This document shows positions 32,552-49,045 of a stretch of DNA of 64,000 nt, in pieces. Under the pieces are notes generated by a model that saw only the letters and a list, made by a program, of their open reading frames with translations, searched no databases and was not told the DNA's origin. Made by a program: the position numbers and the translations under genes. The stretch is from positions 992,001 through 1,056,000 of the forward strand of contig NZ_CP058215.1 in NCBI RefSeq assembly GCF_013388255.1, read 5' to 3'. The DNA is from Methanolobus zinderi (GTDB lineage: Archaea; Halobacteriota; Methanosarcinia; Methanosarcinales; Methanosarcinaceae). The number at the start of each line of letters is the position of its first letter. Position 1 is the stretch's first letter.

Positions 32552-33364
32552 ATGAAAGCAAACAAAACATTTAATTTAAAAAAAGATAACCGGGCCCAGG
32601 TGGGAATTGGTACTCTTATCATATTCATCGCCATGGTGCTCGTAGCAGCAGTAGCGGCTGCTGTTCTTATCCAGACATCCGGTGTACTGCAGCAAAAGGC
32701 TCAGTCAACCGGAAAACAGGCAACACAGGAAGTATCATCCAACCTGATGGTCAAGAATATCGAAGGTATACGTGCCAAGACAAACAGCACGAATATGTCT
32801 GATACAATTGACCTTCTCAGACTCAAGGTAGGTCTGAATGTCGGAAGTGCTCCTGTGGACGTCAACCAGGTAGTTATCTCTATAACTGACGGTACAACTG
32901 CAAACACACTGGTATATGCAGGAAACGAGAAATCATATGCAAGTGCTGGAAGCTCTAATGGAAAAATGAATCCTTTTGGTGGTGTAGCAGCAACTAACCT
33001 GGAAACACTTTTGACAGGTGAGACTTTGATAGATAGTACAAACCTGACAAATTCTCAGAAGTATTACACAGTTGAAAAGATACGTGATGAAGATGCATCA
33101 TTCTCCCAGGCCAATCCTGTAATGAACACTGGTGATCTGATCACGGTCTATATCGCCACTACATCTGATGCAGCAGTTTCTGGAAACTATAGTACAGTAG
33201 GAACTGCTGACGGTCTGTCCGGACTTAAGTCCTCAGAGCTTAATCTTGTTCCAAGGACTACCGTGAATATCGTTCTTACACCGGAATCTGGTGCTGCAAC
33301 AACTGCTGACTTTGTTGCTCCGTCTTCATACGGTGTAAAGGAAACAGTGCAACTGTATCCATAA
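32552..33364 (+). CDS. arlB: Archaellin (flagellin), module 2 first gene
   Basis: 270 residues. From the start through about residue 130 the DNA is nearly identical to the gene at 29246, including the signal peptide KKDNRA and the helix [21 protein letters not shown] variable stretch (near 32960-33050) then differs, and the C-terminal third is again close ([13 protein letters not shown]). This pattern points to recent duplication or gene conversion with a diversifying surface segment. It is followed by a hairpin and another archaellin. Confidence 0.95.
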   Translation: MKANKTFNLKKDNRAQVGIGTLIIFIAMVLVAAVAAAVLIQTSGVLQQKAQSTGKQATQEVSSNLMVKNIEGIRAKTNSTNMSDTIDLLRLKVGLNVGSAPVDVNQVVISITDGTTANTLVYAGNEKSYASAGSSNGKMNPFGGVAATNLETLLTGETLIDSTNLTNSQKYYTVEKIRDEDASFSQANPVMNTGDLITVYIATTSDAAVSGNYSTVGTADGLSGLKSSELNLVPRTTVNIVLTPESGAATTADFVAPSSYGVKETVQLYP

Positions 33365-33416: not shown

Positions 33417-34196
33417 ATGATATCTGTTCATAAATTGCTTAGTAAGGATAACAGTGCTCAGATCGGTATTGGTACTCTGATTATATTCATTGCCATGGTA
33501 CTCATTGCGGCAGTGGCTGCTTCGGTCCTGATACAGACATCAGGTATGCTTCAACAACAGGCACAGTCCACTGGTAAACAGGCTACTCAGGAAGTATCGT
33601 CGAATCTCATTGTCAAAAGTATAGAGGGGATCCGTGCAAACGATAATTCAAGCAGTATCGCAGGTAACGTTTCTTTGCTGAAGATCAGGGTGGGACTTAA
33701 TGTCGGTAGTTCTCCTGTTGATCTTAACCAGCTTATACTTACCATCTCTGACGGGACCAACACCAACGATCTGATATATGCTAACAATGACAAGACCTAT
33801 GGTTCTGTTATGGCTGATTTCTCTGTTGATGCCAATGCAAGTACCAATCTGGAAAAACTGCTGACTGCATCAGGAACTCCGGGTGATAATGCAAAATACT
33901 TCTTTACCGTGCAGAAAATACGTGACGAAGATAAATCATTTTCACAGGAAAACCCGATCATGAATAAGGGTGATCTGGTGACGATTTATGTATCTGCGGT
34001 TTCTGACGGGGATCTGTCTTATTCCACTATAGACAGTATATCAGTAAGTGGATCACAAAAAGATTCAAATCTGGACATAGGGCCGCGTACCACAGTAAGT
34101 ATGGTGCTCACTCCTGAAGCAGGAGCAACCACAGTCGCTGAATTCCTGACTCCGTCATCTTACGGAACAAAGGAAACCATACAGCTATATCCATAA
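33417..34196 (+). CDS. arlB: Archaellin (flagellin), module 2 second gene
   Basis: 259 residues, matching the second gene of module 1 in length. Signal peptide SKDNSA before [20 protein letters not shown]; Ser replaces the usual Arg at -2, which may slow ArlK cleavage. The rest follows the family to [24 protein letters not shown] precedes the ATG. It is the most diverged of the four copies. The EF-hand secreted protein gene follows closely. Confidence 0.93.
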   Translation: MISVHKLLSKDNSAQIGIGTLIIFIAMVLIAAVAASVLIQTSGMLQQQAQSTGKQATQEVSSNLIVKSIEGIRANDNSSSIAGNVSLLKIRVGLNVGSSPVDLNQLILTISDGTNTNDLIYANNDKTYGSVMADFSVDANASTNLEKLLTASGTPGDNAKYFFTVQKIRDEDKSFSQENPIMNKGDLVTIYVSAVSDGDLSYSTIDSISVSGSQKDSNLDIGPRTTVSMVLTPEAGATTVAEFLTPSSYGTKETIQLYP

Positions 34197-34220
34197 ATGC
34201 AGTTTAATGGAGATATCAGT

Positions 34221-34895
34221 ATGCTGGTAAAACGAGTGATCATGTTCGTTATGTGCTTGAGTCTATGCCTGATGCTCACTGCATCAGGTGAATCTTCATT
34301 TACAAATGATATAAGAATATCCGGGCAAACGATTGATTTTGCCATACATGAGTACTACTCCGGTAATGATTCCCGAGAATTCAAGGAATCCCTTGATATC
34401 AATGAAGACGGATTTGTAAACTCATCGGAAACTGAATTCTTCTTTAGTTCATTCCAGGGTAAAAAACTGGATCAATACAGAGGATATGTCATAGCAGACG
34501 ACGGAAATACGGACTTGTCTATGGACTCATTCGATATAGAGCTGAATGGCGAAGTCGGTGAAGTGGATACGTCTGATATGAGCGTAACAGTTTCTATTAA
34601 CTATAGAACAAATTCTTCATTTTCCAGAGGTAACCACAATATATGGATACTGGGTCATCCTTCTATAAACCATATGAGTATCACTCTCCCGGAGGATGCA
34701 CAACTGCATTCTTATGATGGGCTTGATAACTCTTCGGTATCGGTAGAGAATGACAGAATTATACTGGAAGGTGTGAGTGGTATTCGTTCATTTAATGTGG
34801 ATGACCGACTCACATATGAGTATGCAGTTTCAATGGATATCAGGAATGGGTTTTTCCTTGCAGATATGTCTGTATTTAGTTTTCTGTATTCCTGA
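34221..34895 (+). CDS. Secreted protein with one EF-hand/dockerin-like loop
   Basis: About 224 residues from ATG 34221 (GGAGAT seven bases before; an ATG at 34197 is also in frame). Signal peptide MLVKRVIMFVMCLSLCLML. DINEDGFVNSSE near residue 60 is a textbook 12-residue calcium loop with acidic or oxygen ligands at 1, 3, 5, 9 and 12. The remainder is beta-rich (SMSVTVSINYRTNSSF). No membrane anchor, so it may be free or attached to the cell surface or archaellum. It follows the last archaellin by 24 bases and is likely cotranscribed. I do not know a named family. Confidence 0.6.
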   Translation: MLVKRVIMFVMCLSLCLMLTASGESSFTNDIRISGQTIDFAIHEYYSGNDSREFKESLDINEDGFVNSSETEFFFSSFQGKKLDQYRGYVIADDGNTDLSMDSFDIELNGEVGEVDTSDMSVTVSINYRTNSSFSRGNHNIWILGHPSINHMSITLPEDAQLHSYDGLDNSSVSVENDRIILEGVSGIRSFNVDDRLTYEYAVSMDIRNGFFLADMSVFSFLYS

Positions 34896-35019
34896 TTCTG
34901 ACTTTTATTAATTTTTATATTTTTATTTTATATGTATGAATATAATTAAGTACTAGTTCTACATAGTATATTATTATTAATATTAAATATGCTTAAAATA
35001 TAATCCTTCAGGTGCTTAC

Positions 35020-35967
35020 ATGAATTCCAGATATCCTTCAATATTGCTAATCATATTTCTTCTTGTAGCGTCAAGCGGTTGTGCAAGCCAGCCTCCGGAA
35101 GAAGCTGTGTCGGATACAGTAACAGGTTTTTTAGAGGCTATTAATGAAGGTGACTTCAATTCGGCATATAATATGTATGAAGGGAAGGACTTTCTGGCTG
35201 TTGCAAGTGTAGAGATGATCTTTGCAAACAAGGGAATCGAACCGGGAAGTATTAACAATATAGAAATCGTCTCTCTGGAGGTTGTTGATAAGCTGGCTTT
35301 TGTAACTGCAGAATGCAGTGTTTCCTCGGTTGACCTGACAGGTAATCAGCTAGATGAAGCAAAGACGATGCCTATTTATTTCGGTTTACAGAATACCGAT
35401 CTGGGCTGGATTATAACCCGGGTTACGTTCAATGCTCCCCTTACAGTTGAGGACGCCGAGGTTGTTGACATCGAGGTTGAGTCCACGCCCGTTGATACGA
35501 TCGCAGATAATGCTCCTGTGATCTCTGCATTTGCTTTCGTTATGCTAGGTATGGGAGTTTACCTTGACAGGAAAGACAAATCAAAGAAAAAGGAGAGTAG
35601 CAGGACCATAGATGTTTCCGGAGCAACTGCTATGCAAAAAGAGGTGATTGCCCAGTATGTCAGGATAATACCTGCTCAGGGAGTTACCGCCGGTAAGAAT
35701 ACAACCGTGGATGTCTGGGTAAAGAACTTTGCCCAGCAGCCATATGAGAATTTTGCGGTCAAAGCCAAGTTCGGGAACACTGTGGAAGTTGAAAATATAA
35801 ATCTCTTCTTTGATAATATCGCTCCGGGACAAACCGTAAAGAAGACATGGGTAATCAAACCCAAGGTCGCAGGCTGGACGTCCATAGAAGAACCTACTGC
35901 GGTTTTCGAGTATATGGGTACGAAATACATAGGTGTACTGGACCCTGTATGGATACAGGTTCAATAA
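35020..35967 (+). CDS. Lipoprotein with NTF2-like, membrane and CARDB-like domains
   Basis: 315 residues. Signal peptide ends in the lipobox-like VASSGCAS near residue 20. Residues 28-140 resemble the NTF2/DUF4878 fold (VTGFLEAINEGDFNSAYNMY). A membrane segment near 165-182 (VISAFAFVMLGMGVYLD) is followed by lysines, then a C-terminal domain (TTVDVWVKNFAQQPYENFAV) of the Ig-like CARDB/archaellum-stalk type. The two-sided topology is unusual: lipid-anchored outside domain, then a C-terminal domain predicted inside unless the orientation flips. A TATA-like stretch is near 34985-35003. It starts the long plus-strand run. Confidence 0.6.
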   Translation: MNSRYPSILLIIFLLVASSGCASQPPEEAVSDTVTGFLEAINEGDFNSAYNMYEGKDFLAVASVEMIFANKGIEPGSINNIEIVSLEVVDKLAFVTAECSVSSVDLTGNQLDEAKTMPIYFGLQNTDLGWIITRVTFNAPLTVEDAEVVDIEVESTPVDTIADNAPVISAFAFVMLGMGVYLDRKDKSKKKESSRTIDVSGATAMQKEVIAQYVRIIPAQGVTAGKNTTVDVWVKNFAQQPYENFAVKAKFGNTVEVENINLFFDNIAPGQTVKKTWVIKPKVAGWTSIEEPTAVFEYMGTKYIGVLDPVWIQVQ

Positions 35968-35991
35968 TACCTTTTGCGGGGTGACAATTCT

Positions 35992-38004
35992 TTGACCGAA
36001 AAACAGGGAGAAAAGGGTGTAGGGGAATCACAGAAGAATGATCCGGATGCTCTCAGGCAAAAGTTAAATGAGGCAATATCGTCTCATTTTTCAGGTGGCT
36101 CTCCAAAAGGTTCTGCTCAGGACAGCGTGCAGAATGGATCACTGATTGATATTGTAAAAGATGAACTGGATGAGTCTAACAGTTCAACATTTAACGAAGG
36201 GCAAATTGATGAGGATACAGGTGCGGAATCCGAAGCATCGGTAGTAGAAATATCTGTAGTTGAAAAAGTTAAAACAAAAGTTGAAACTTTTAATGGAGAA
36301 CCAGAAGACCTGAATGTTCATGATTCTGAAGCAGAGGTTAATTTTGACACCAATCTGTTTTCAGATGCATTTGAAGAAATTGAATACCAGTCGGTTGACA
36401 TTGAAATTGATGAGGAAAAAGGCTCACCAGTGGATGAAGATGATTCCAGATATGCGCAGATAGTTCAGAAAGCTTTGAAATCCTCTACGAAATCAAGGGT
36501 GGAAACGGTTCTTGATCCTGAAATAATGGATGAAGAAACTGAGGTCATGCGAAATGTCACCGAAAATAAAGAAAACAAAACTGAGGTTTTGGAAAAAGAA
36601 ACAGTTTCTGATGTCAATGTGGAAATTAAAAATCCGTTTTCCAGTGAAAAGGATATTTCTTTTGGTACTGTTTCAAAAAAGGACTCGATATCAGATTCAG
36701 TTTCACCTGACCGGGATATTTTGCTTAAAGAATCTATTGTAAAGAAGTATGGCAGCAAAGACACAAAAGCGGAGATTCTGGAGGAGCTAAAGAGAAAACA
36801 GGCGATTAGTTCAAAGGCCAGAAACCCGATTGGTAAAAACCAGAATATCTTTAGAAAAACTGAAGTTATAAATGAAAGAGAAAAGCAAACTCCTGCGGAC
36901 ATTTCTTTGAAGAAAAGCACAACAGATGATTCTGATCCTGAAATTGTATTTCTGTACAGTGAAAAACATCTGGAACATGATCCGTCTTCTCTTTCTATCA
37001 AGGCACATGAGAATCCGGAACGTCTGATCAAAGCTATGTGGTATCTTGAAAAAAGCGGTATTTTCAAACGTGAACAGTGTACTCTGACCAGTGATTTTGA
37101 GATGGCTACAGAAGAAGATCTTTTAAGGGCTCATGATGACTCATATGTTGAATTTGTGAGGTCTTATTCATCTGCAGGAGGTGGTTTCCTTGGTGATAGC
37201 ACTTACATGACACCCGGATCATATGATGTTGCGAAGACATCTGCCGGAGCTGCCATTAAGGCAGGTTCTCTTGTGGCTGAAGGTAAATACCCTTATGCAT
37301 TTGTGATGACCCGGCCTCCGGGACACCATGCAAGCAGAAGCAAATACGGTGGATTCTGTCTCTTTAACAACGTAGCAATCCTTGCCAGATACCTGCAGAA
37401 AAAGAAGGGTGTGGGAAAGGTTATGGTCATAGACTGGGACGCACATGCAGGGGATGGGACCATGGATATATTCTATGAGGATCCCACGGTCATGCTTGTA
37501 TCCCTGCATCGCGACCCGCATGGATTCTATCCCAGAAAAGGTTTCTCAAAAGAAACCGGGGAAGGAGCAGGCAAGGGTTATACGGTAAATGTGGAAATGC
37601 CTGTAGGAGCAGGAGATGAGGATTATGAACTTGCTTTTGGAGAAGTTGTTATGCCTCTGATTAAGAGCTTTGCTCCGGAATTTGTTATCTGTTCCTGTGG
37701 TTTCGATGCATATTATAAAGAAAAGAACATAGGCCTGAGCCTCACATCAGAGGGCTTTTACAAAATGACATCTATGCTCAGGTCCCTTTATAAGAAAAAC
37801 TTTGTTCTCATGATGGAAGGGGGCTATCATGACTTTAACGGGCAGTTGTGTCATAGCGTGTTGAGTGCATTGCTTGGTGAAGAAAACCCCGTGAAGGATA
37901 AGCCGGAGATTTCCAGTTTCAAAAGAAATCAGCAAAAGCAGATTCTTGCTGAAACAAAAAAGAAGCTCGAAGAACTGAAAGAGATAATATCTTTGCCGGC
38001 ATGA
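35992..38004 (+). CDS. HDAC-family deacetylase with long acidic N-terminal extension
   Basis: About 670 residues from TTG 35992 (GGGGTGA just upstream; a TTG at 35974 is less likely). Residues 1 to ~310 are low-complexity, acidic and probably disordered (VNFDTNLFSDAFEEIEYQSV is typical). The HDAC domain spans ~315-640 with RPPGHHA (catalytic His pair), DWDAHAGDGT (zinc Asp and His), GFDAYY (third zinc ligand) and EGGYH (transition-state Tyr). All catalytic residues are present. Family members remove acetyl groups from lysines or polyamines. The extension is not found in ordinary archaeal HDAC-like proteins. The next gene is a second HDAC. Confidence 0.88.
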   Translation: MTEKQGEKGVGESQKNDPDALRQKLNEAISSHFSGGSPKGSAQDSVQNGSLIDIVKDELDESNSSTFNEGQIDEDTGAESEASVVEISVVEKVKTKVETFNGEPEDLNVHDSEAEVNFDTNLFSDAFEEIEYQSVDIEIDEEKGSPVDEDDSRYAQIVQKALKSSTKSRVETVLDPEIMDEETEVMRNVTENKENKTEVLEKETVSDVNVEIKNPFSSEKDISFGTVSKKDSISDSVSPDRDILLKESIVKKYGSKDTKAEILEELKRKQAISSKARNPIGKNQNIFRKTEVINEREKQTPADISLKKSTTDDSDPEIVFLYSEKHLEHDPSSLSIKAHENPERLIKAMWYLEKSGIFKREQCTLTSDFEMATEEDLLRAHDDSYVEFVRSYSSAGGGFLGDSTYMTPGSYDVAKTSAGAAIKAGSLVAEGKYPYAFVMTRPPGHHASRSKYGGFCLFNNVAILARYLQKKKGVGKVMVIDWDAHAGDGTMDIFYEDPTVMLVSLHRDPHGFYPRKGFSKETGEGAGKGYTVNVEMPVGAGDEDYELAFGEVVMPLIKSFAPEFVICSCGFDAYYKEKNIGLSLTSEGFYKMTSMLRSLYKKNFVLMMEGGYHDFNGQLCHSVLSALLGEENPVKDKPEISSFKRNQQKQILAETKKKLEELKEIISLPA

Positions 38005-38012
38005 GGTGTCTG

Positions 38013-39095
38013 ATGGTACACATTGGTCTTACCTATAACGAAAATCATGATCTGCACGATCCAGTTCTAAACGGTTTTCCGGGTCCTGAGAATCCGGACC
38101 GCTTGAATCAAATTCTTGATTATCTTGCTAAAAAAGATATTTTTAACAATGAAACCTGCTCTGTGTATAATTCCGACCCTGCTCTGCTAGAAGATATCCT
38201 GAGGGTCCATGTCAGAGAATATGTGGATCTTGTACGGTCAAGTACAAAAAAGTCTGCCAGACAGCTTGGCACGGATACATATCTTTGTGATGCTTCCTTT
38301 GATGTATTGCTGCAGGCTATAGGTTGTGTTCTCAAAGCAGGTTCACTTGTTGCAAAGGGAAATTGTGATCACTCATTCGCACTAATAAGGCCGCCCGGTC
38401 ATCATGCCGGGATCTCAAATTCGAGTGGGTTCTGTGTCTTCAATAATTCGGCCATTCTGGCAAGATACCTGCAGGCAGAACACGGGCTGGAAAAGATTGT
38501 TATAATCAATATTGATGCGCATGCCTCTGACGGGACATACAGTATTTTTTCTGACGACTCTGATGTACTCTGTATTTCAGTTCATCAGGACCCTTCAACA
38601 TTGTATCCATATAAATGTTTCACAAAGGATATTGGTGTTTATCCAGCACTTGGTTTTTGTATTAACATGGAAATGCCTCCGCGGTCTGGGAATTCTGAAT
38701 ATGCAATATTCTTTGATGAATTTGTAATTGAAGTACTGGAACAGTTCGATCCTGATATAGTTATCCTTGAATGTGGTTTTGACTCATATTACAAGGAATC
38801 ACTTGCACAGCTTGATCTTACAGTCGATGGTTACTATCACATTGTTTCAAAGCTGGCAAAAAGGTGGAATACTGTCTGTCTTCTGGAAGGGGGCTATCAT
38901 GATGATCTGGGCCTGCTTGTATTTGCAGTTATCGAAGGGCTTATGGGCAGGAAGACCGTAGTTGATGAGGTGGACCAGGTTGATCTTCTGGCAAGCAGGG
39001 ATACCAGCACTAGAAAAATTTTTATAAAAAAGCTTTCTAAATTAAGAATGATACTTGATCCCTACTGGGAATTCAGTGTCAACTCCAGGGTGTGA
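38013..39095 (+). CDS. HDAC-family deacetylase, second copy
   Basis: 360 residues from ATG 38013, with GAGGTG just before it; the earlier ATG at 38001 overlaps the preceding stop. Catalytic and zinc motifs are intact: RPPGHHA, NIDAHASDGT, GFDSYY and EGGYH. It resembles the catalytic domain of the preceding gene but lacks the acidic N-terminal half. Two deacetylases side by side may have different substrates or act as a heterodimer. The GNAT gene follows after four bases. Confidence 0.88.
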   Translation: MVHIGLTYNENHDLHDPVLNGFPGPENPDRLNQILDYLAKKDIFNNETCSVYNSDPALLEDILRVHVREYVDLVRSSTKKSARQLGTDTYLCDASFDVLLQAIGCVLKAGSLVAKGNCDHSFALIRPPGHHAGISNSSGFCVFNNSAILARYLQAEHGLEKIVIINIDAHASDGTYSIFSDDSDVLCISVHQDPSTLYPYKCFTKDIGVYPALGFCINMEMPPRSGNSEYAIFFDEFVIEVLEQFDPDIVILECGFDSYYKESLAQLDLTVDGYYHIVSKLAKRWNTVCLLEGGYHDDLGLLVFAVIEGLMGRKTVVDEVDQVDLLASRDTSTRKIFIKKLSKLRMILDPYWEFSVNSRV

Positions 39096-39099
39096 TAAG

Positions 39100-39990
39100 A
39101 TGATCGAGATTGCAAGAACTGACGATGGCTTAACTTTCTGCATTCTGGAATACTCTTCTGAACTTGACAAGTTGAGGATCGGTGATTTTGAATATTTTAA
39201 GAAACATCTTGGAATGGCGGACTATACAGCAAATTTCAGGAGCTGGCTTAAAAGACCTTCTGTTTTCTTAATGCTAATCATCTTTCATGGAAAAATCGTA
39301 GGCTGGACCATGAACGAGAAATGGAACAAACCATCTGCCGATGGCAGACCTGTCTTTGTACTAAGAGCCATCGAGATCTCCCCCGGACTTTCCCGAAAGG
39401 GTCATGGAAAAGATCTCTTTGTTATGGTTTCCCGCTTCCTTCCCGGCCATATGATTACAAAACCGGTCAATGCAAGTGCTCGTGCATTCTTTGAATCCCT
39501 TGGCTTTATTCTGCCTGATATCCATAGTCCGGTAAACCTGAATGATCATCCCGGTTACCTGATACTGTCCGAAGAGAGGAAGCCTTCTCTTAAATCAATT
39601 ATTATGGACAGATTCAACGCAAATATCCTCTCTGCCAGGCAGAAGAAGTTCCCAAAAGAGCTCATTGTTGAAAACCCGGGCGAACAACAGGATGGATCTG
39701 CTGATATGGAGGGATCACCGGATGATGGAGTTACTCAGGAAAGGGCTGACTCTGAAGCAGAGGACAGTTCTGAAGATAATGATTCTCAGGCTGCTGAAGA
39801 TCTCCCTGTACAGGATCGGATAGTAAACGATACGGAAGGAGAGTTCAAAGGTGATCAGAAAATGATGACTCCATGCAAATGCGGTGCTTATTCTGCAGGA
39901 AAGTTCCTTCAGGAAGGTTCCAGGTGCGGAACCGCCTTTGTCTGCCTGCAGTGTGGTACTGAGCGCTATTTCCTTCCGTTGAAGAAATAA
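39100..39990 (+). CDS. GNAT acetyltransferase with C-terminal zinc ribbon
   Basis: 296 residues from ATG 39100 (GGGTGTGATAAG before it; an upstream start at 39055 would overlap the HDAC). The GNAT acetyl-CoA motif A is LRAIEISPGLSRKGHGKDL, and the later ASARAFFESLGF is motif B. Residues ~195-255 are acidic linker, then CKCGAYSAGKF and CLQCGTERYF supply a CxC...C...CxxC zinc ribbon. It pairs with the two deacetylases upstream, and it is distantly similar to the GNAT at 44919. The acceptor is unknown. Confidence 0.75.
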   Translation: MIEIARTDDGLTFCILEYSSELDKLRIGDFEYFKKHLGMADYTANFRSWLKRPSVFLMLIIFHGKIVGWTMNEKWNKPSADGRPVFVLRAIEISPGLSRKGHGKDLFVMVSRFLPGHMITKPVNASARAFFESLGFILPDIHSPVNLNDHPGYLILSEERKPSLKSIIMDRFNANILSARQKKFPKELIVENPGEQQDGSADMEGSPDDGVTQERADSEAEDSSEDNDSQAAEDLPVQDRIVNDTEGEFKGDQKMMTPCKCGAYSAGKFLQEGSRCGTAFVCLQCGTERYFLPLKK

Positions 39991-40062
39991 GCTCCTGTTT
40001 ATTGCTTTTTAAGTACTTTTCTGCTTACCCCTAATTTTATATTTGTTTATCAATGGAAGGGT

Positions 40063-40893
40063 ATTTTTGGCACACTTCTCAAGGTTCAGCAGAATATAAG
40101 CGAAAGATTCCCAAAATCAAAGGTTCCCTGGAATGAGACTCGCAAGTTCCTGAAATGCTTTACAATCGATGCTATCAGATCAAATTCACTGCATAAGTTC
40201 CATATGAAGCTGTTCAATGAGAGCGGACTCGGGTCAATGCAACTTATTTCGTATGCGCCCATGAATTATATTTTCGCTGTTCCGAATAACCCCATATGCA
40301 ACTGTTATCCTGCTTTGAACAACCAGAAAGTATGTGTTGCCACCACCGATGCACTGCACAGGTTCTTTACCGAGGAACTTGAACTTGAATGTTCCGTGGA
40401 AGAGACCGAGTGTATAAAGAACGGTGATCCTGTATGCAAGTTCAAGGTAGCCCTGCAGCCTATATCAGCCTACCAGATAATGCTGGATGAGCAGGACAAG
40501 ATGATCTTATCGGGAGTCCGACCTCCAGTGGACCAGAACGAGCTTATTGAAAGGGTCAAGGCGCTGACAGTGTACAAATTGCTGGATAACGGTAAGCTCT
40601 CTGAGATCGGTAATGCTTACATGCAGTTTGCAGGCAACATGAAAGTCCAGGAAAAGATATTCGATCCGCCCTGGAAAAAGGAAGAGGAAATTGCTGCTGT
40701 TGCCTCAAAGCACAGTACCTTCGGATCGGCCTTTGGTGAGATGGCTCAGAAGATCCAGGATACTCCGGCGGAAAAGGCTCCGCCTGCAACAAGTACAGCA
40801 AAAGAGGAAAATCCCAAATTACAGGAAGAGGCCAAAAAAACGGATAGCTTTGCCGAACTTATGGCTAAAATGAAGAAAAACCAAGAGGCTTGA
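40063..40893 (+). CDS. V4R-like cysteine-containing protein; start region irregular
   Basis: The conserved-looking frame runs at least from 40063 (IFGTLLKVQQNISERFPKSK) to the stop at 40893, about 276 residues. The domain ends with CSVEETECIKNGDPVCKFKV, the Cys pattern of V4R (4-vinyl reductase) small-molecule or metal-binding domains. A Pro/Lys/Gln-rich tail follows. The only nearby ATG is 40053, one base out of frame: dropping one G of GGG at 40059-40061 would give MEGIFGTLL. So an indel, sequencing error or ATT start is implied; ATG 40204 would cut the domain. Gap of 3 bases to the Sm-like gene. Confidence 0.65.
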   Translation: MFGTLLKVQQNISERFPKSKVPWNETRKFLKCFTIDAIRSNSLHKFHMKLFNESGLGSMQLISYAPMNYIFAVPNNPICNCYPALNNQKVCVATTDALHRFFTEELELECSVEETECIKNGDPVCKFKVALQPISAYQIMLDEQDKMILSGVRPPVDQNELIERVKALTVYKLLDNGKLSEIGNAYMQFAGNMKVQEKIFDPPWKKEEEIAAVASKHSTFGSAFGEMAQKIQDTPAEKAPPATSTAKEENPKLQEEAKKTDSFAELMAKMKKNQEA

Positions 40894-40896
40894 AAA

Positions 40897-41232
40897 ATGC
40901 CGGGTATCAGAAAAGATCCGTTTGACGATCATCTGTCAGACTTTATCGGAGAAAACGTTCGTGTGATTACACGAAAATCACATTACAGGGGAATATGTGT
41001 GAAAATAGATCATGATAACAATAACGTATTACTGAATAACGTGCTGCAGAAAAGCGAAGCCGGATGGATTGACATAAGTGATAAAATGCTTGTGATGGGC
41101 TCCTCGGTCGAATCCATATATCTCGAGAAAAGTTTCCCTTTTGACAGCAACGAGTCTCTGATCCTGGCGATCGAGAAGGGTGATATGCTGGAGTTCGAAG
41201 GTGAGACCATGGGTCTGGAGGAATTGGAATGA
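40897..41232 (+). CDS. Sm-like (LSm-fold) small protein
   Basis: 111 residues. FIGENVRVITRKSHYRGICV, then IDHDNNNVLLNNV, matches the Sm1 motif (V-x-V... Y-x-G... D... N-x-x-L), and LVMGSSVESIYLEK matches Sm2 (G-x-x-V-x-x-I). A 30-residue C-terminal acidic tail follows. Classical archaeal LSm proteins form RNA-binding rings; this one is divergent and sits in a signalling run, so it may be a protein-binding adaptor. Its stop overlaps the ATG of the KaiC gene. Confidence 0.65.
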   Translation: MPGIRKDPFDDHLSDFIGENVRVITRKSHYRGICVKIDHDNNNVLLNNVLQKSEAGWIDISDKMLVMGSSVESIYLEKSFPFDSNESLILAIEKGDMLEFEGETMGLEELE

Positions 41233-42283
41233 ATCAGGAAGAAAGAATACCCACGGGAATACTACACTGCTCGTTGTTGGTTCAAGTGGTACGGGAAAAT
41301 CCACGTTCGCAATGCAGTATCTCACCTACGGTCTGGAACATGGCGAGAATGCACTGTACATCAGTATGGAAGAACCACCTGAGCAGATCCTGCGTGAAGC
41401 AAGGATGCTTGGTTTCAATCTGGATAAGTTCTATGAAAAAGAGCTTTTCTTCTTCCATTCTAAGGGTAAGGATTTCGTAAAGCTTGTAGATGAACAGTTG
41501 CCTGCCCTGGTCGAGGCTAACAAGAACTTCTCGGTAAAGACCCGTGTTGTCATAGACCCTTTGACTCCTCTAATATGGGCGGTTGATGATAAGCAGGAAC
41601 AGCGTGAGATCATCACCAAACTCTTCTACACCATGAAACAGCTCGGACCGGTCCTGATCACAACTGAGGAACACGCAGCACCCGGTGAGACCATCGGTGA
41701 GGATGTGCTTATTCCCATATACATGTCAGACGGCGCAGTGCACCTTACATACCGTCCCATTGGCGGGGCTTTTAACAGGGCGCTTGAGATCGTGAAGATG
41801 CGTGCAACAAGACACGGTGAGGAAGTGTATCCATATATCTTTGTGCGTGGCATAGGAGTTGTTGTAAGGACAACGCCTCTCGTATCTGCGGAGGATATGC
41901 GCAAGTATGACGATCTATTCGATAAGGCCATCAGAACAGCAGCAGATCTGGGAGCAAGTGAAACGGTGCTGGAACGCCTTGCATATGTAAAGGAGAACTG
42001 GTCATATCCTTTCTCCCCGAAGGAAACACTGCAGATATTCTTTGAATCCCAGGGACTTACCGATGCACTCACAAGAGAGGAGATTGCCCGCAGAAAGGAG
42101 GAGAGCGCACCATCGGATGTGCAACTTAACGTAGATGATCTATCCTCTACGGAGACAACGGAATCTGCTGAAGCCGTTCCTGATGAACCTGTGGAAGCGG
42201 CTGAAGATGGTGAAGCCGGGGACGATGACGAGGATCTGATAGAGATCAACGATCTGCGTGAGCTGGAAGAAATGTTACAGTGA
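41229..42283 (+). CDS. KaiC/RAD55-type ATPase; frame broken before Walker A
   Basis: ATG 41229 gives MNQEERIPTG, the usual KaiC-domain opening, but about 14 codons that normally hold GLDELxGGG are missing and the frame changes near 41256. From there a second frame gives NTTLLVVGSSGTGKSTFAMQ (Walker A), SMEEPPEQIL (catalytic Glu pair) and VVIDPLTPLIW (Walker B) to the stop at 42283, ending in a ~50-residue acidic tail. Upstream codons of that frame at 41180 are the shadow of the Sm-like gene. Either the gene is a recent pseudogene or the assembly lost about 46 bases at an ACGGGAA microhomology. I list it as CDS because the remaining ~340 codons are intact. Confidence 0.75.
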
Positions 42284-42294
42284 TTTAAGGTGCG

Positions 42295-43071
42295 GTGAAG
42301 CTGGTGGCCAAAAAGACAAAGGATGATCTGGAAGATGTATCTCTTCTGAAGTTTGCCCTGGTCTCTCAGTTAAAGAGGACCTATAAGGCCAGTGAGGTAG
42401 ACGTACTTCTGTTTGCAGGTGCAGATGGCAGGATCTATGCTTCGTATATCCCGGAAAGCATAGGTGCAAAGATTTTCGAGCTGACCAATCTGATAAGCCA
42501 TAATCTGCTTCATGTAAGCCAGCAGCTTGCGATGGGACTTCGCCAGTCGGTCATCGAATATGATTTCGGGACGGTGATATTCTCTTCTGTGGGAAAAGGA
42601 GCACTCCTGATATCACTTTTTACTGGCAAGGCAGACCTTTCGGAAGATATGGCCAAGATCGAGGTGGCAAGACAGGTAGTTCAGCATATATTTGAACAAC
42701 GTCCCATGACCTCTGATGAGCTTTCCAACTATTCGGATGAGGTCGCAGCCGAGCTACGTGAGCTTTCAAAAATAGTGTTCAATGAGATGTATACCCAGTC
42801 TTCCGAGTACAAAAAGAATATGGAAATTCTTGCCGATATTAAGGAGAAGATCACAGGCGTTATGGGAAGAGGTGAAGTAGAGCAGGTACTTGCCATGGCC
42901 TTCAATGAAATAGCCTCTACTCCCAAGTGGATGACTGAAGATTTGTGGCCTCTGCTTGTCGAGATGATCATAAGGGATCAGATAAGACCCCTTCACGGTG
43001 ATTATGTTGCAGATATGTGTGAAGCTGAATGGATACCTGATATCAAACACAAACTGGAGTCATTCGTATGA
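42295..43071 (+). CDS. Roadblock/LC7-like domain protein
   Basis: About 258 residues from GTG 42295 (AAGGTGC upstream; GTG 42304 is possible). The N-terminal ~130 residues (EVDVLLFAGADGRIYASYIP, then SVGKGALLISLFTGK) show the Roadblock/LC7 beta-alpha pattern of MglB-like regulators of small GTPases. The C-terminal half is helical and ends in a conserved-looking MTEDLWPLLVEMIIRDQIRP. Archaeal Roadblock proteins often neighbour signalling ATPases. It lies 11 bases after the KaiC gene. Confidence 0.6.
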   Translation: MKLVAKKTKDDLEDVSLLKFALVSQLKRTYKASEVDVLLFAGADGRIYASYIPESIGAKIFELTNLISHNLLHVSQQLAMGLRQSVIEYDFGTVIFSSVGKGALLISLFTGKADLSEDMAKIEVARQVVQHIFEQRPMTSDELSNYSDEVAAELRELSKIVFNEMYTQSSEYKKNMEILADIKEKITGVMGRGEVEQVLAMAFNEIASTPKWMTEDLWPLLVEMIIRDQIRPLHGDYVADMCEAEWIPDIKHKLESFV

Positions 43072-43080
43072 GGTGCCATC

Positions 43081-44898
43081 GTGAGTAGTGATACTGACAT
43101 AGTTCCCGAATGCTGTCATGGAGAGGATCTTATGCTAGCAGAATCCGGGGAAACTGATGTTCGATCCGAAGACAGTGAGGATATCTCGCCTGAGGATGAT
43201 TCAGAGTTAATGGAAGCTGCTTATAATTATTCCACAGACGGTCCTAACAATATTGAAGGATCTCCGGAAGCATCTGTCACGGAGTATCAGAAAAATGCCA
43301 GTCCTGGCACAGATCAGGAATTATCCGAGGGTGATGCTGATATTCAGCCTGCACAAACCGACGGATTCGATACTCACGAAGAAAATGATGCTAGTTCTTT
43401 CCAGGATGAAAATATGATTGATCCGGATTCTGATCCCGATGAGTGTTATATGGCAGAAGGTCCCAGGGTGGAACAGGTATCATCGGAAGATCTGCCCTAT
43501 TCCGAGCTGGAAGAAAAATATCTGGACCTTGAAGCAAGGTTTGCAGAACTTCAGGAAAAGGTCAATACCAGTTTCAATGAGCAATCTGAGAATATGCAAC
43601 ATATCAGGGAAGAGCTTTCATCAAGATCCGATCGGAATGAGTTTAAGCAGTTGAGAAAGGACTTTGATCTTTTTTCTAAACGTTTGAGAAGGGTAGCAAA
43701 GGCGGAGGATTCTGTCAACGCAGAAGCACTTGATGCGGCAAAGGTCCCGCCGGAAGTACTTGAGATCACCTATGCAAAAACCCTGAACGATCTTTATGAC
43801 GCGATGTTCAATATCTTCGGCGATAAGGAATCCGCGGAAATTATTGAAGATGCCAGGGACAAGGTACGTAATTTCAGTGCAGGTGTGGACTTTTTCAGGT
43901 TCGAGAACGGAACCTTCCGTGTGGAGGGGCTTTCAAAAGCCACTTCATCAAAACTTGTTTCTGTAAAACAGATACATTCAACATATATTGAATTATTCAA
44001 ATTATTATCCCAGCATATTCCGAATTACAATTCACAGGACTTCCGGTCCTTTGTGGAAACAGGAAGCCGTGAATATACAGTTGAGAAAGTGGTTGTCCAT
44101 GAGGAATCCATAGAAAGCCTGTGGTCAGAGATCAATAACGCCAGTGAAGAGCTTTCCAATCTCACAGAGAATATGACCTTCATAGCCGAACTTCAGAACA
44201 CTCAACTTGATGATATCAAATCAAATTCTGAAGGTATCGAAGAGATCAACGGCAAGATCCAGGATATAGCAAAGGCTGTCAATCTGCATACAAAAGCCCT
44301 GAAGAAACTCAATAATAACCTTGCATCACTTATGTCTTCAGAGGGCTTAGAAGGAATTCCCTCTTCAGGTTCAGTCGAGGTGGACATCTCAAAGTTCGAG
44401 CAGCATCTAGAATCCAAAGCAGATCGCTCTGAAATCCTTGATATTTCAGCTTCCATCAATGAGTTCAGGGAAGAACTGAAGGGTTCACTTGTGTCGATGA
44501 AGGAGCAGCAGGAATCAATGGTAAGTGTTGAAATGCTGGAAAGCATCCGTTCTGAGGTCATACAACTGCGCGAACAGATGGAAACTCTGCAGAATACCAC
44601 TCCGGCAGTACCAGATGTAACAGATATATCCGATACTCCGGCTGTTGAGGAGGATCCGGTAGATACCGGCCCACAGTCAAACATTGGAGCTTATGAACAG
44701 TTAATCATTGAGGAGCTGGCAAGCCTTGGTCCCGTAACCCTGAAACAGCTTGAGAATCAGGTGAACTCAAGGGGATGCGAGATCGGCTTTGATGAGCTCT
44801 CTTCTATTGTGGATACCATGGAACAGGCACAGTTGCTGACATCTTTCAAGAAGGGCAGGTATACGTATCTCTCCCTGAAAGAGCTGGCGAATGTCTGA
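43081..44898 (+). CDS. Coiled-coil protein with C-terminal winged helix
   Basis: 605 residues from GTG 43081 (GAGGTG seven bases upstream). Residues 1-135 are acidic and likely disordered; ~140-215 a coiled coil (LEEKYLDLEARFAELQEKV); ~220-345 a globular helical domain (FRFENGTFRVEGLSKATSSK); ~350-510 more coiled coil; ~535-605 a winged helix (IEELASLGPVTLKQLENQV). Length and coiled coils suggest a scaffold with a DNA- or protein-binding end. It is not the ArlD/E domain. I do not know the family. Confidence 0.6.
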   Translation: MSSDTDIVPECCHGEDLMLAESGETDVRSEDSEDISPEDDSELMEAAYNYSTDGPNNIEGSPEASVTEYQKNASPGTDQELSEGDADIQPAQTDGFDTHEENDASSFQDENMIDPDSDPDECYMAEGPRVEQVSSEDLPYSELEEKYLDLEARFAELQEKVNTSFNEQSENMQHIREELSSRSDRNEFKQLRKDFDLFSKRLRRVAKAEDSVNAEALDAAKVPPEVLEITYAKTLNDLYDAMFNIFGDKESAEIIEDARDKVRNFSAGVDFFRFENGTFRVEGLSKATSSKLVSVKQIHSTYIELFKLLSQHIPNYNSQDFRSFVETGSREYTVEKVVVHEESIESLWSEINNASEELSNLTENMTFIAELQNTQLDDIKSNSEGIEEINGKIQDIAKAVNLHTKALKKLNNNLASLMSSEGLEGIPSSGSVEVDISKFEQHLESKADRSEILDISASINEFREELKGSLVSMKEQQESMVSVEMLESIRSEVIQLREQMETLQNTTPAVPDVTDISDTPAVEEDPVDTGPQSNIGAYEQLIIEELASLGPVTLKQLENQVNSRGCEIGFDELSSIVDTMEQAQLLTSFKKGRYTYLSLKELANV

Positions 44899-44918
44899 AT
44901 GTAGCGTGGAATTCTAAA

Positions 44919-45686
44919 ATGTCTGTTAAAAATATGTCTGTGTTACACCGGGCTGGCAATGTTTCCTACGGATTGCTGGGTTCTGAATCAGCAGTTGATG
45001 ATCTTGTCATTGAAGTTGGCAGGACAGGTCTATCCGGTTTCAATTATTTCCATAAGAAATTCGGTATGCCTTATGAGTTCCTTCTTAAAAGGTCTATCAG
45101 CTCGGGCCATGCCCTCTTTGCAGCCACAGATGACAATGCAAGGCTTTTAGGTTTTGCACGATTCGAAAAGATAGCCGATGAAGTAGAGAGGATACACAGG
45201 GGAAAGAAAAATGTTGTGAAGCGCCCTGTATATTTGCTCAGGAGTATAGAGGTCCATCCTTCTTTCAGGCATATAGGAATAGGCAGGTTGCTTTTTGCAA
45301 TTGCCGTGGAAAGTCTGAAATCCAGTGTAATAACATTGCCGGATAATTTCCAGGCTGCCCGTTTCTTCAGAGAGAAACTCATGTTTATAACGATCAGTGA
45401 GAACGACTGCACGGTTTCTGCGCGCTATAAGGATTACCTGCTTCTGTCATATCCCAAAGCAAGGGTTCTTCTGAAAACCATTGCAGAGAACTATCCTCGC
45501 ATGGTAATGCCTGAGCTTATAGATTCCTATGAGTCACTGATGTTCAAGTCGAATATGGGAAAAAGCATAAGCAGAAGAGATCTTAACAGGTTTAAAGAAC
45601 TGCTGGAAAGCTCAACTCATCTTGTCGATGGAAAGCTCTTGAAGGAAATGAATTCATTTTTAAATAAATTTACTGTAAAATCCTAG
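44919..45686 (+). CDS. GNAT acetyltransferase
   Basis: 255 residues. Motif A is RSIEVHPSFRHIGIGRLLFA, and NFQAARFFREKLMF is the following motif. The C-terminal ~80 residues are helical and unlike a GNAT domain (IENYPRMVMPELIDSYESL region). It resembles the zinc-ribbon GNAT at 39100 in the first 150 residues. It follows the coiled-coil gene by 20 bases. Substrate unknown; with the HDACs upstream it suggests reversible acylation. Confidence 0.75.
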   Translation: MSVKNMSVLHRAGNVSYGLLGSESAVDDLVIEVGRTGLSGFNYFHKKFGMPYEFLLKRSISSGHALFAATDDNARLLGFARFEKIADEVERIHRGKKNVVKRPVYLLRSIEVHPSFRHIGIGRLLFAIAVESLKSSVITLPDNFQAARFFREKLMFITISENDCTVSARYKDYLLLSYPKARVLLKTIAENYPRMVMPELIDSYESLMFKSNMGKSISRRDLNRFKELLESSTHLVDGKLLKEMNSFLNKFTVKS

Positions 45687-45706
45687 ATATATTGTCGAGG
45701 TGTTTT

Positions 45707-46276
45707 ATGAACCTGGATGTTCTGAGACTGCGTAAAGGATTGTTGAAATATTATGGTAAGTACAATGTTCAGGTCAAAAATTCTCATTCCGTATCTTCAA
45801 AGACCACTGTGGATGAGTGTTCGCAGTTTATTGATGAAATAGTCGGTGAGCTTGTGGCACCTATTGAAAATAATATCCGCCGGGAGCTATCCCAGCTTTT
45901 CAAGGAATGTGAGAATCCTGAGATTCCCTATTTTGAAGTTGTCATGGATATAATGCAGTTCATGAACGATTTTGTGGGTGATCCGCATGTGGTTGAGCTG
46001 ATCTTTGTAAGGGTAAACAACAGTGTTGCAAGGAAAAAGCTGGAAGTAGAGGATAAGGTCTACTACAGTGATGAGGAGTGGACAGAAGAAGTGTCGGAAG
46101 CCGCACTACAAAGGCTCAGGGATTCGGGTACGGAACGTGATTACCACTTCATGATCGATCAGATCGTCGATATACTCTCATATGCAACTACAGAGGAGAA
46201 ATTAAAAACCGTACGTATGCGGCTCAACAATATAATAAAGCAGCACAGTCACCGGGAATTAAAGGACCTTAACTGA
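45707..46276 (+). CDS. Helical protein of unknown function
   Basis: 189 residues from ATG 45707, preceded by GAGGTG; an upstream ATG at 45692 adds five residues. No recognised domain. Predicted all-helical, with TTVDECSQFIDEIVGELVAP early and DQIVDILSYATTEEKLKTVR near the end. It is the last gene of the plus-strand run before the convergent KaiC-like gene at 46303, 26 bases away. Confidence 0.55.
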   Translation: MNLDVLRLRKGLLKYYGKYNVQVKNSHSVSSKTTVDECSQFIDEIVGELVAPIENNIRRELSQLFKECENPEIPYFEVVMDIMQFMNDFVGDPHVVELIFVRVNNSVARKKLEVEDKVYYSDEEWTEEVSEAALQRLRDSGTERDYHFMIDQIVDILSYATTEEKLKTVRMRLNNIIKQHSHRELKDLN

Positions 46277-46302: not shown

Positions 46303-46986
46303 TTATATCATATTAATTCCACAAGACTCGATCCGGAATGAGTGCTCTCCTGCAACAAAGTCGCTTCCCCTTGTTTTGATCACTTCGAGATAGCGGTGTA
46401 TGTTCGTATTTTCCTTTTTTCTCTTTAGCTCAAGGATAGTGTCAACCATGTAAGACCATGTACTGGAAGCGATGGACTCTTCAGGGATCTCTCCTGTTAC
46501 AAGCAGGAGTATATCTCTTTCTTCGAATTCGTAGAACAGATTGTTGACAAAGGTACGAAGTTCACAACTTCTCAGCTGTTTTTCTTCAAAGGTGCTGTCA
46601 ATCTCGGAAAGTATCGTTATCGGATCAATGACAACCCTTGAAGGGGAATAGTTGAGTACGTGCTCCCGTATGTATTCAAATATTGAAAAATCGCCTTCTG
46701 CGATGGTATCCGCACTGATGGAACAGATTCGGAGTTTTCCTGTATTTATAACATCCTCACTGAAAAAATCAAAGGATGAGAGTGAACGTATGATCTTTGA
46801 TCTGGATTCTGAAAGCAGGGATACGTATACGCAGTTCTCTCCACGCTTTGCAGCTTCGAAAAGTGACTGGAAACAGATATTTGTCTTCCCGCACCCTGCA
46901 CTTCCTGCAACAAGGGTCACGGAAGGACGAATAAACCCTCCGCAGAGAACCTCATCAAGTCCCTGTATAAAAGATGAACTTCTCAT
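46303..46986 (-). CDS. Single-domain KaiC/FlaH-like RecA-fold ATPase
   Basis: 227 residues. The KaiC opening GLDEVLCGGF (residues 9-18) and Walker A GSAGCGKTN are intact, and SRVVIDPITILSEI is Walker B. The place of the catalytic Glu pair reads LLSESRSK, with only one Glu, so hydrolysis may be weak. ArlH, the archaellum ATPase-like subunit, has this fold and also binds ATP with little hydrolysis; single-domain KaiC relatives are the alternative. It diverges from the winged-helix gene at 47166 across ~180 bases containing TATA boxes for both. Confidence 0.7.
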   Translation of the reverse strand: MRSSSFIQGLDEVLCGGFIRPSVTLVAGSAGCGKTNICFQSLFEAAKRGENCVYVSLLSESRSKIIRSLSSFDFFSEDVINTGKLRICSISADTIAEGDFSIFEYIREHVLNYSPSRVVIDPITILSEIDSTFEEKQLRSCELRTFVNNLFYEFEERDILLLVTGEIPEESIASSTWSYMVDTILELKRKKENTNIHRYLEVIKTRGSDFVAGEHSFRIESCGINMI

Positions 46987-47165
46987 GTAAATCTCCCGAC
47001 CAAGGTATGGCGTGATTATTTATATATTTGTCGAACTAAAAAAAAATTCGAATATTGTTTTATTACCTTTGTAAAACGGATAAGACAAACTAAGTAGACT
47101 TATATATTATCACATCTATTAAATTTGATAAAGAGTAGAAATTTCACTTTATCGTGTTGATAACT

Positions 47166-47573
47166 ATGTCTGATCCACAAAGTAATACTGATATTCTGGA
47201 GTATCTGTATGATATTGACAGGCGTTTAAAATTACTGGAGTCACGTCTTTCTAAACTTGAAACATACTCTTCTCCGCCAATTGAAGACAAGATGGCAGTT
47301 TTTCTTACGGTTCCCGATTCGATCCGCAAGTCACTGTTTGCCGTCTCAAAACTGGAATCCTGTACCGCCGATGAAGTAAGTGATGTCACAGGAAGGCACA
47401 GGTCCATTGAGAACAAGTACCTGAATGAGCTGTACAGGGGAGGCTGGCTTGAGAGAGAGAGGAAGGGGAAGAAGATATACTACTCTATGAAGAAGAAGGC
47501 TGTGCAGGATAAGGATAAGCACTGGTCTGCAGTAGAGGAAGTAGAGGATAAACTTGATCAGTTACTGGGGTGA
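47166..47573 (+). CDS. Winged-helix transcriptional regulator
   Basis: 135 residues from ATG 47166 (a TTG at 47154 is less likely). A short coiled coil (LYDIDRRLKLLESRLSKLE) leads into a helix-turn-helix with ESCTADEVSDVTGRHRS and the wing LERERKGKKIYYSMK, an ArsR/MarR-like pattern. TATA box near 47098-47112. Its stop and the next gene's Shine-Dalgarno GGGGTGAG overlap, so it is cotranscribed with the MinD-like gene. Confidence 0.7.
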   Translation: MSDPQSNTDILEYLYDIDRRLKLLESRLSKLETYSSPPIEDKMAVFLTVPDSIRKSLFAVSKLESCTADEVSDVTGRHRSIENKYLNELYRGGWLERERKGKKIYYSMKKKAVQDKDKHWSAVEEVEDKLDQLLG

Positions 47574-47577
47574 GAGG

Positions 47578-48306
47578 ATGCTGTTGAGTTTCCATTCATA
47601 TAAAGGCGGTACTGGAAAGACCACTCTCGTGGGAAACCTGGGAGTGCTGCTTGCCAGAGATGGCAGCAAGGTATGTATTGTGGACACTGATGTAAACGGT
47701 CCGGGTCTTCACTCCCTTTTTGATATCAAATATGACCTGACGCTGATCGATTTTCTGCAGGGCAGATGCAGGGCACAGGATGTAGTCTACAAACACGATC
47801 ATGAGGGTATTGAGCTCTATATAGTGCCCACAAGGGCCTGCGAAGAAGATATCTCTTCATTGTTCAACACACCCGGTGAGGCAAGGGAAAAGATGTCCGA
47901 GCTTATCAAAGTTCTCCAGAGGGATCTCAGTATTGAGCACTTACTGTTTGACTGCAGTCCGGGTATTAATCGCTCAAGCCTTCTGACCATGAACCTTGTT
48001 GACAAGGCTACTATCATCTGCACCGTTGATGTGCAGGATATCAGAGGGACATACATACTTTCCAGCATGGCTGAAAAACTGGGTACAAGGGCCAATTTGC
48101 TCTTTAACAGAACGCCCGGGGATAAGCAAAAGGAAATAGATGAAGTGATAAAGGACTTCAGCAACAAACTTGGGACTGACCTGCTTGGTTCAATAGCCTT
48201 CGATGACTACGTTGCACGTGCCTGGTCGAGAAAGCTTGTAATGGAAGAAGATCCCGAATGTGATTACTGCTTACAGTTAAGATCAATTGCTGAAAAGCTC
48301 GTATGA
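47578..48306 (+). CDS. MinD/ParA-like P-loop ATPase
   Basis: 242 residues from ATG 47578 with GGGGTGAG upstream. The deviant Walker A KGGTGKTTL (residues 9-17), DTDVNGPGLHS (A') and HLLFDCSPGI (Walker B) mark it as a MinD/ParA superfamily ATPase. Known: MinD paralogues in haloarchaea position archaella and chemosensory arrays. Inference: it may place the archaellum or the signalling complex of the upstream run. No amphipathic MinD membrane helix is obvious at the C-terminus. Confidence 0.82.
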   Translation: MLLSFHSYKGGTGKTTLVGNLGVLLARDGSKVCIVDTDVNGPGLHSLFDIKYDLTLIDFLQGRCRAQDVVYKHDHEGIELYIVPTRACEEDISSLFNTPGEAREKMSELIKVLQRDLSIEHLLFDCSPGINRSSLLTMNLVDKATIICTVDVQDIRGTYILSSMAEKLGTRANLLFNRTPGDKQKEIDEVIKDFSNKLGTDLLGSIAFDDYVARAWSRKLVMEEDPECDYCLQLRSIAEKLV

Positions 48307-48370
48307 ATTAAAGGCTTTTCGCTTCTCAATTTTTACGATAGATATTTTTTGTTTTTTGTATCCGGTAACA

Positions 48371-49045
48371 TCAAATACTGTATTCACGAACCCTGTCACC
48401 GGCTATTTTATCCAGTTCTTCTTTTTCTTCAGGTGTGAGTCTGAATATATCTTTTATTTTTTCCATTTCAGTATTCATATCCTCTTTTGATGAGTTTTCC
48501 CGGGACAATGACATTTCAGGATCTTGAAGATTCTTGTCCTGGCTATATATGCTGCTATCGCTTATCCTGAAGACCTCATCGAATGACCGGGTGATGTATT
48601 GTTCTGAATCATGGTCCAATGTGTTCAGGTCTTCTCTGTAAAATGAAATGATCGTCCTGTTCTGCTCACGTCCTTTGCGGAGAAGTACTGAAAGGAACCT
48701 GGAACATGTCTTCCTACCAAGTTCAAGTGAAAGCTCATCAAGACTGTCAAAAATTATCAGACTGCTTTTGTCTGCAAGCAGCCTTTCCAGCTTTATCATT
48801 GAACTTGTAAGGTTCCGGGAAATACTGAATTGTGTTATCTGACAATCAACCGGCCCTGTAATCATATCGGGGGATTCGCTCCAGTACAGATGTAGTACTG
48901 ATCCGTCAAAAAAGTTGCAATAGTCAGTGATCAAATCACCCATACTTGCAGGTATTTCCGCTTTTCCATACAGGAAAAGGGAGCTTTTACCTTCAAGTGT
49001 TCTCAGGAAATCTCTGGATAGCTGAACTTCTTTCCCCGCATTCAT
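48371..49045 (-). CDS. KaiC-like protein without a P-loop
   Basis: 224 residues. The first strand FLYGKAEIPASM sits where Walker A would be but lacks GxxxxGKT. SSLIIFDSLDELSLELG reads as a Walker B segment, and SRFLSVLLRKGREQNRTIIS as the next helix-strand. It therefore looks like a RecA/KaiC-fold pseudo-ATPase. The C-terminal ~65 residues are charged. It converges on the MinD-like gene, 64 bases away. The fold assignment is tentative. Confidence 0.5.
   Translation of the reverse strand: MNAGKEVQLSRDFLRTLEGKSSLFLYGKAEIPASMGDLITDYCNFFDGSVLHLYWSESPDMITGPVDCQITQFSISRNLTSSMIKLERLLADKSSLIIFDSLDELSLELGRKTCSRFLSVLLRKGREQNRTIISFYREDLNTLDHDSEQYITRSFDEVFRISDSSIYSQDKNLQDPEMSLSRENSSKEDMNTEMEKIKDIFRLTPEEKEELDKIAGDRVREYSI

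Follow-up and report, generated by a model that had tools for sequence, protein, structure and literature searches.

The window analysed here is a stretch of 64,000 nucleotides (64 kb) of the Methanolobus zinderi genome (contig NZ_CP058215.1, positions 992,001 to 1,056,000). It carries a run of 12 open reading frames (ORFs), all on the plus strand, spanning 34197-46276 downstream of four archaellin genes; 11-12 plus-strand genes beside archaellins had been predicted, in agreement with this layout. We suggest, with a probability of about one half, that these genes form an archaeal operon for signal transduction that likely acts on the archaellum, via a KaiC/Roadblock switch, an acetylation cycle and a CheF-like adaptor. 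The genome is a single contig of 2.70 Mb, 99.96% complete, and is close to M. halotolerans by protein identity.

The ORF calls place the archaellins at 29246-30061, 30095-30883, 32552-33364 and 33417-34196. The run begins directly after the last of them, also on the plus strand, and this adjacency is kept in loci L004-L014, L017, L053, L054 and L058-L061. The first gene (34197-34895; alternative start 34221) encodes a secreted, weakly dockerin-like protein (Dockerin_1 E-value (E) 0.01, below the cut-off; position conserved, 35-51% identity). The second (35020-35967), also conserved in position, encodes a predicted lipoprotein with one membrane span, as judged by eye, and no Pfam domain was found in it. 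HDAC1 (35974-38004) has an HDAC6-type deacetylase domain after an acidic N-terminal extension of ~340 amino acids (PF00850 E 2.5e-87; HDAC6 E 1.6e-99), with active-site residues present in the motifs RPPGHH, DWDAHAGDGT, CGFDA and EGGY. HDAC2 (38001-39095; PF00850 E 2e-75), a second HDAC-fold deacetylase, probably starts at the ATG at 38013, which is preceded by GAGGTG; it is not present in some other genera. Both proteins belong to PF00850 and retain the zinc ligands, His dyad and catalytic Tyr (motifs RPPGHH, DWDAHAGDGT / NIDAHASDGT, GFD and EGGY). GNAT1 (39100-39990) is an acetyltransferase-fold protein with a C-terminal zinc ribbon (CxC...CxxC); it matches PF00583 (E 7.9e-5, 23.4 bits vs. 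a cut-off of 20.7), and its acetyl-CoA loop is non-canonical (no Q/RxxGxG/A). GNAT2 (44919-45686) matches the same family with 33 bits (E 8e-8) and has the canonical acetyl-CoA motif RxxGxG in the loop RHIGIG. The catalytic motifs of the HDAC and GNAT enzymes are mostly intact.

Between GNAT1 and the V4R gene, relatives have an extra gene of 195 amino acids, here called CheF-like, and the window copy of it is gone. Compared with these relatives the window is missing ~0.8 kb, which comprises the CheF-like gene together with roughly the first 30 codons of V4R (cf. L004:7040-7669 and L001:455-1180). At the deletion junction (39991-40070, plus strand) a TATA-like stretch is fused to the V4R body. 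In one genome of the genus (L057), ~1.9 kb of extra sequence lies between GNAT1 and the CheF-like gene, at the site of this larger deletion. The truncated V4R gene (40204-40893) has a frame open from 39991 and its first start codon at 40204. It is followed by genes for a small Sm-like protein (40897-41232), a KaiC-like ATPase that is frameshifted (41229-42283; PF06745 E 4e-38; remaining frame 41258-42283), a Roadblock/MglB-fold protein with a C-terminal helical domain (42295-43071), a coiled-coil protein (43081-44898) and GNAT2. The last gene (45692-46276) belongs to no recognised family, is missing from part of the Methanolobus group, and probably starts at the ATG at 45707, again preceded by GAGGTG.

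The gaps between the genes are, in order, 124, 6, -4, 4, 213 (to the first V4R start codon), 3, -4, 11, 9, 20 and 5 bases. These values correct the range of 3-73 bases given in the original prediction, the upper value of which presumes a V4R start near 40064, where there is no ATG, GTG or TTG. GAGGTG does occur repeatedly, in nine copies within the run, but judging by position only those before HDAC2, the coiled-coil gene and the last gene, three in all, stand at ribosome-binding distance. Nor do the genes appear to act as one unit, as had been proposed: two transcription units are likelier than one, because in relatives a spacer of 160-230 bases precedes the CheF-like gene.

The predicted HDAC, GNAT, V4R and KaiC domains are all supported by Pfam. 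For V4R this applies to the intact copy at L004, which matches PF02830 with 31.7 bits vs. a cut-off of 31 (E 1.6e-7); the domain and its cysteines are still present in the truncated window protein. Cysteines 123, 149 and 157 are spaced by 26 and 8 residues, as are C206, C232 and C240 of MsvR, the redox-sensing V4R regulator of methanogens, which lends some support to the predicted redox sensing, although V4R domains in general may be spaced in this way. The protein is not an MsvR, since its match to NF053755 (E 1e-6, 28.6 bits) is far below the cut-off of 220 and covers the V4R part only, with no match to the DNA-binding part. The Sm-like label is tentative, with support at the level of profiles from a match to the Sm D3 profile (E 0.003), with LSM14 (E 3e-4) below its cut-off.

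The KaiC domain (PF06745), with Walker A in frame with a start, is present in every relative examined but not in the window, owing to the frameshift. The intact copies resemble archaeal KaiC-like ATPases, including CirA and ArlH, for which effects on motility have a precedent: CirA affects motility in Haloferax (PMC13286277). They differ in scoring below the cut-off for ArlH and for every NCBIfam KaiC family, and in having fixed partners (V4R, Roadblock, HDAC and GNAT). Identity with ArlH was rejected (NF052589, 54.7 bits vs. a cut-off of 215); an ArlH-like gene is located in the arl operon at ~2.155 Mb.

A Pfam search of the window Roadblock protein gave no match to Roadblock; a profile search of the PDB matched 9jue (E 8e-4). 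The AlphaFold (AF2) model (predicted local distance difference test, pLDDT, 85) matches MglB and Asgard Roadblock structures in Foldseek with E ~1e-6 and a template modelling (TM) score of ~0.7 by target length. Membership in Roadblock/LC7, with an MglB fold, is thus confirmed by the profile match and the predicted structure. The protein differs from MglB in its extra C-terminal helical domain, and no MglA-type GTPase is recognised in the run.

The coiled-coil protein has a central domain (approximately residues 205-340) conserved in an alignment spanning two phyla (A7) and a winged-helix-like C-terminus, the latter being a reading of the alignment with no domain match behind it. It was considered as an ArlC, ArlD or ArlE protein and rejected, having no Pfam match; the only two PF04659 loci of the genome lie elsewhere. 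One locus (L083:8332-11214; G000:C1 ~2.116 Mb) encodes a 960-amino-acid ArlCDE-domain protein outside the arl operon, and two ArlCDE loci are found in most genomes of the genus.

Conservation of the run and its probable link to the archaellum

A search of the whole collection with the Roadblock protein returned 18 loci, from Methanolobus, other Methanosarcinaceae, Methanosalsum and one Thermoplasmata metagenome-assembled genome. With tblastn of all neighbours the order turned out to be the same, and beside archaellins wherever the contig extends that far, with the exception of Methanosalsum natronophilum. The Roadblock protein occurs in 27 of 393 Halobacteriota genomes, all within four genera of Methanosarcinaceae and including 20/20 of Methanolobus. 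This count was upheld with a broader Roadblock profile, whose only additions within Halobacteriota were two weak single-domain matches. Regions fetched from the three other genera contain archaellins, the secreted pair, HDAC, GNAT1, CheF-like, V4R, Sm, KaiC, Roadblock and coiled-coil genes in order, and most of them also have GNAT2 or the last gene. These genera appear to be Methanosalsum, Methanohalobium and Methanomethylovorans, the assignment being firm only for G222 (L016).

In Thermoplasmatota the Roadblock protein was found in 5 of 293 genomes, and all five have V4R, KaiC and Roadblock together. The coiled-coil gene then follows in four, the fifth contig stopping at that point. A recognisable CheF-like gene lies upstream in three, with a short ORF of ~95 amino acids in its place in the other two; a GNAT gene lies downstream in three and an HDAC gene upstream in two. 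The proteins are 17-60% identical to those of the window, and an order shared by chance at such identity, without selection or transfer as a unit, is unlikely. Scattered homologues or a chance neighbourhood, the finding that would have spoken against the predicted system, are ruled out, since four genera keep the gene order next to archaellins and the core recurs in Thermoplasmatota. Two more conserved proteins of ~207 amino acids and unrecognised family are encoded between the coiled-coil and GNAT genes of Thermoplasmatota (L076:16296-17542 and L079:14546-15804); no counterpart of them was seen in the run of the methanogens. In the same phylum a small gene pair lies upstream of the CheF-like gene (L076:10550-11296, L079:9604-10374 and L080), in which a weak match to a TumE-like toxin is joined by a winged-helix partner of the HVO_A0114 type.

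The predicted co-occurrence with the archaellum is borne out. ArlCDE is found in 26/26 run-bearing genomes of the family (tested in both searches) and in 17/35 without the run (Fisher p 3e-6, not corrected for ancestry). In Thermoplasmatota it is found in four of the five genomes with the run core vs. 78/293 overall (p 0.02, likewise uncorrected). One genome (G002) has ArlCDE paralogues and archaellins just upstream of the run, all on one 30-kb stretch. In M. natronophilum the run lacks the CheF-like and Sm genes and its core is not near archaellins. The two missing genes lie adjacent on another contig (L101:10604-14326), between a gene for an 887-amino-acid ArlCDE-domain protein and an archaellin gene, and their products share 60% and 38% identity, respectively, with the usual copies. 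When this locus was split, both genes thus remained in the company of the archaellum genes, which is independent support for an archaellum output. Taken together, the conserved order, the co-occurrence with ArlCDE and these two M. natronophilum genes make an archaellum-linked signalling system, as originally predicted, a good inference.

Paralogous multi-pass membrane proteins are encoded on either side of the window archaellins (28277-29083 and 31238-32396), the second with a MarR-like neighbour, and this membrane-protein/MarR-like pair is also found beside archaellins in other genera. The archaellins at 29246-30061 and 32552-33364 have an identical N-terminal half and a near-identical C-terminus, which suggests a recent duplication or gene conversion.

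The CheF-like gene and damage to the window copy

CheF (DUF439, PF04283) is the adaptor from CheY to the archaellum. A contact with the archaellar switch (C-ring) has been proposed for its N-terminal PH-like domains, and CheY-P is bound by its tail (PMC9126983). Nearly without exception, CheF genes follow che genes (PMC2666748). The CheF-like protein shares with it a PH-like domain, a CheF-type C-terminal region and the company of archaellum genes. The L004 protein falls short of membership, with 18.2 bits against PF04283 (cut-off 25), a predicted fold (pLDDT 74) of one PH-like domain followed by helices instead of two such domains, a length of 195 amino acids, and a gene that lies with KaiC, V4R and Roadblock in the run and not in a che region. 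The C-terminus matches CheF structures weakly (7ovp, E 0.038; another, E 0.26). In a search for CheF, the one chemotaxis protein covered, no strong canonical match was found among the run-bearing genomes, and no match at all in the window genome. Nor was an orthologue of the CheF-like protein found elsewhere in the window genome. Relocation of the gene was considered and rejected, the only candidate being a distantly similar, longer stand-alone protein of 424 amino acids (L020:1405-2679; G000:C1 ~1.177 Mb), to which frames of 400-420 amino acids in relatives are alike. At the sequence level, nothing else in the run points to the motor as directly as the CheF-like gene, which the original prediction missed because it is deleted in the window.

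The run had been taken for a working unit, which the ~0.8-kb deletion and a second one in KaiC do not support for the window copy. In KaiC, a 43-bp deletion at 41257/41258 takes out the conserved segment (S/A)GLDRVIEGGVRD that precedes Walker A and causes a frameshift; the lesion is masked by an ORF whose GTG start lies within the Sm gene. In relatives, every KaiC copy examined is intact at this site, and no second close KaiC was found elsewhere in the window genome. An unusual start codon for V4R was considered and discarded, since relatives start ~30 codons upstream, in sequence deleted from the window. It is unlikely that the lesions are sequencing slips, because deletions of 43 bp and ~0.8 kb are not homopolymer errors; they may be strain-specific or laboratory-acquired and are less likely to be assembly faults.

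Substitutions on the window branch, counted against M. halotolerans with L003 as the outgroup, are 40 synonymous to 1 non-synonymous in KaiC, 30 to 3 in V4R and 29 to 3 in Roadblock. These genes were strongly constrained until very recently, and the KaiC ratio shows that the damage is recent. With the CheF-like gene gone, V4R without its start and KaiC frameshifted, the output of the window copy is probably impaired. Near 2.155 Mb the same genome has an intact archaellum operon (arlCDE, F, G, H, I and J, as named by sequence and order).

Possible output and alternative explanations

A role as hubs of archaeal signalling has been proposed for KaiC-like ATPases, whose partners and outputs are mostly not established. 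The operon gives one such ATPase a defined partner set (a sensor, the ATPase, a Roadblock protein, acetylation enzymes and a CheF-like adaptor), with the archaellum as candidate output. The V4R protein of intact copies would sense thiol/redox state or a small ligand via its conserved cysteines. Its state would be read by the KaiC-type ATPase assembled with the Roadblock (MglB-fold) protein and the coiled-coil scaffold, and the CheF-like PH-domain adaptor would pass the result to the archaellar switch (ArlCDE), replacing the CheY-CheF route or working alongside it. The HDAC and GNAT enzymes would reversibly acetylate one or more proteins of the run, coupling the switch to the supply of acetyl-CoA. 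Support for the link to the archaellum is fair; as for the mechanism, we infer the complex, the sensing, the ATPase control, the acetylation targets and the effect on swimming. If true, it would connect archaeal motility with reversible acetylation of proteins. All parts are members of known families or resemble them, and the assembly, as read from sequence, is a variant of the KaiC-centred idea of archaeal signalling. No earlier description of the operon was found in the literature searched, which did not cover the main 2017 KaiC-hub survey.

Several points weigh against such a role. The resemblance to CheF is weak by sequence, the window copy is broken, and the cysteine spacing may not be particular to redox sensors. 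The co-occurrence depends on few lineages, one of the five Thermoplasmatota core genomes has no ArlCDE match, and in that phylum archaellins do not adjoin the core. The run is lacking in many relatives that have an archaellum (g3, g5), and it would therefore be an accessory and not a requirement. A wider proposal is doubtful and is offered tentatively: a second, CheY-independent control of the archaellum, in which a KaiC-Roadblock-V4R switch with its own acetylation and deacetylation enzymes and a CheF-like adaptor, common to Methanosarcinaceae and Thermoplasmatota, replaces canonical CheF in several methanogen genera and is now being lost in the window genome.

It is also conceivable, if unlikely, that the operon governs transcription of archaellin or archaellum genes and not motor switching, the KaiC/V4R state reaching archaellum promoters through winged-helix-like tails on the CheF-like or the coiled-coil protein. 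The regulons of CirA and of CsmR, an archaellum regulator, are shared (PMC13286277), and MsvR, the nearest named V4R family, regulates transcription. Such tails seem to be present, and archaellins and the membrane-protein/MarR-like pair are adjacent, but no winged-helix assignment exceeds the Pfam cut-off, the Thermoplasmatota core is away from archaellins, and the predicted PH-like fold suggests docking to a protein.

Less probable again is a general regulator of acetylation or energy status with metabolic targets, akin to the control of acetyl-CoA synthetase by the acetylation-deacetylation pair AcuA/AcuC, and placed beside archaellins by ancestry. In both cases a GNAT and an HDAC-fold deacetylase are encoded together; the run differs in that both enzymes occur twice and are combined with a KaiC/Roadblock/V4R module. 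The AcuA half of the pair is covered in PMC11255334, and GNAT-dependent acetylation of metabolic enzymes is established in haloarchaea (PMC12607858). The complete active sites of both HDACs, the one canonical GNAT and the Thermoplasmatota core not beside archaellins would fit this explanation; the complete co-occurrence with ArlCDE in the family and the M. natronophilum CheF-like gene, which stays with ArlCDE and not with HDAC, would not.

Least probable is that the window genes were broken recently and no longer have a function, so that only relatives have a working run: the losses of the CheF-like gene and V4R start, the KaiC frameshift and the absence of an orthologous replacement in the window genome agree with this, but the remaining ORFs are open, the arl operon and archaellins are intact, and the KaiC ratio makes any decay very recent. 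This explanation is compatible with archaellum signalling in the relatives. The damaged window copy is in any case a natural experiment, with the archaellum operon intact and the adaptor and ATPase recently lost.

Neighbouring features

No non-coding RNA was found in the window, and the search for phage or defence associations gave marginal PHROGs and PADLOC matches only. A second conserved block follows the run at 46303-49045. It encodes a KaiC/RecA-like ATPase (minus strand), a coiled-coil winged-helix protein, a MinD/ParA-like ATPase and a RecA-like protein (minus strand), and its order is retained in most Methanolobus loci and in L061. Further downstream, two paralogous transporters resembling sodium/solute symporters are encoded ~5 kb apart, at 52283-53869 and 58799-60403.

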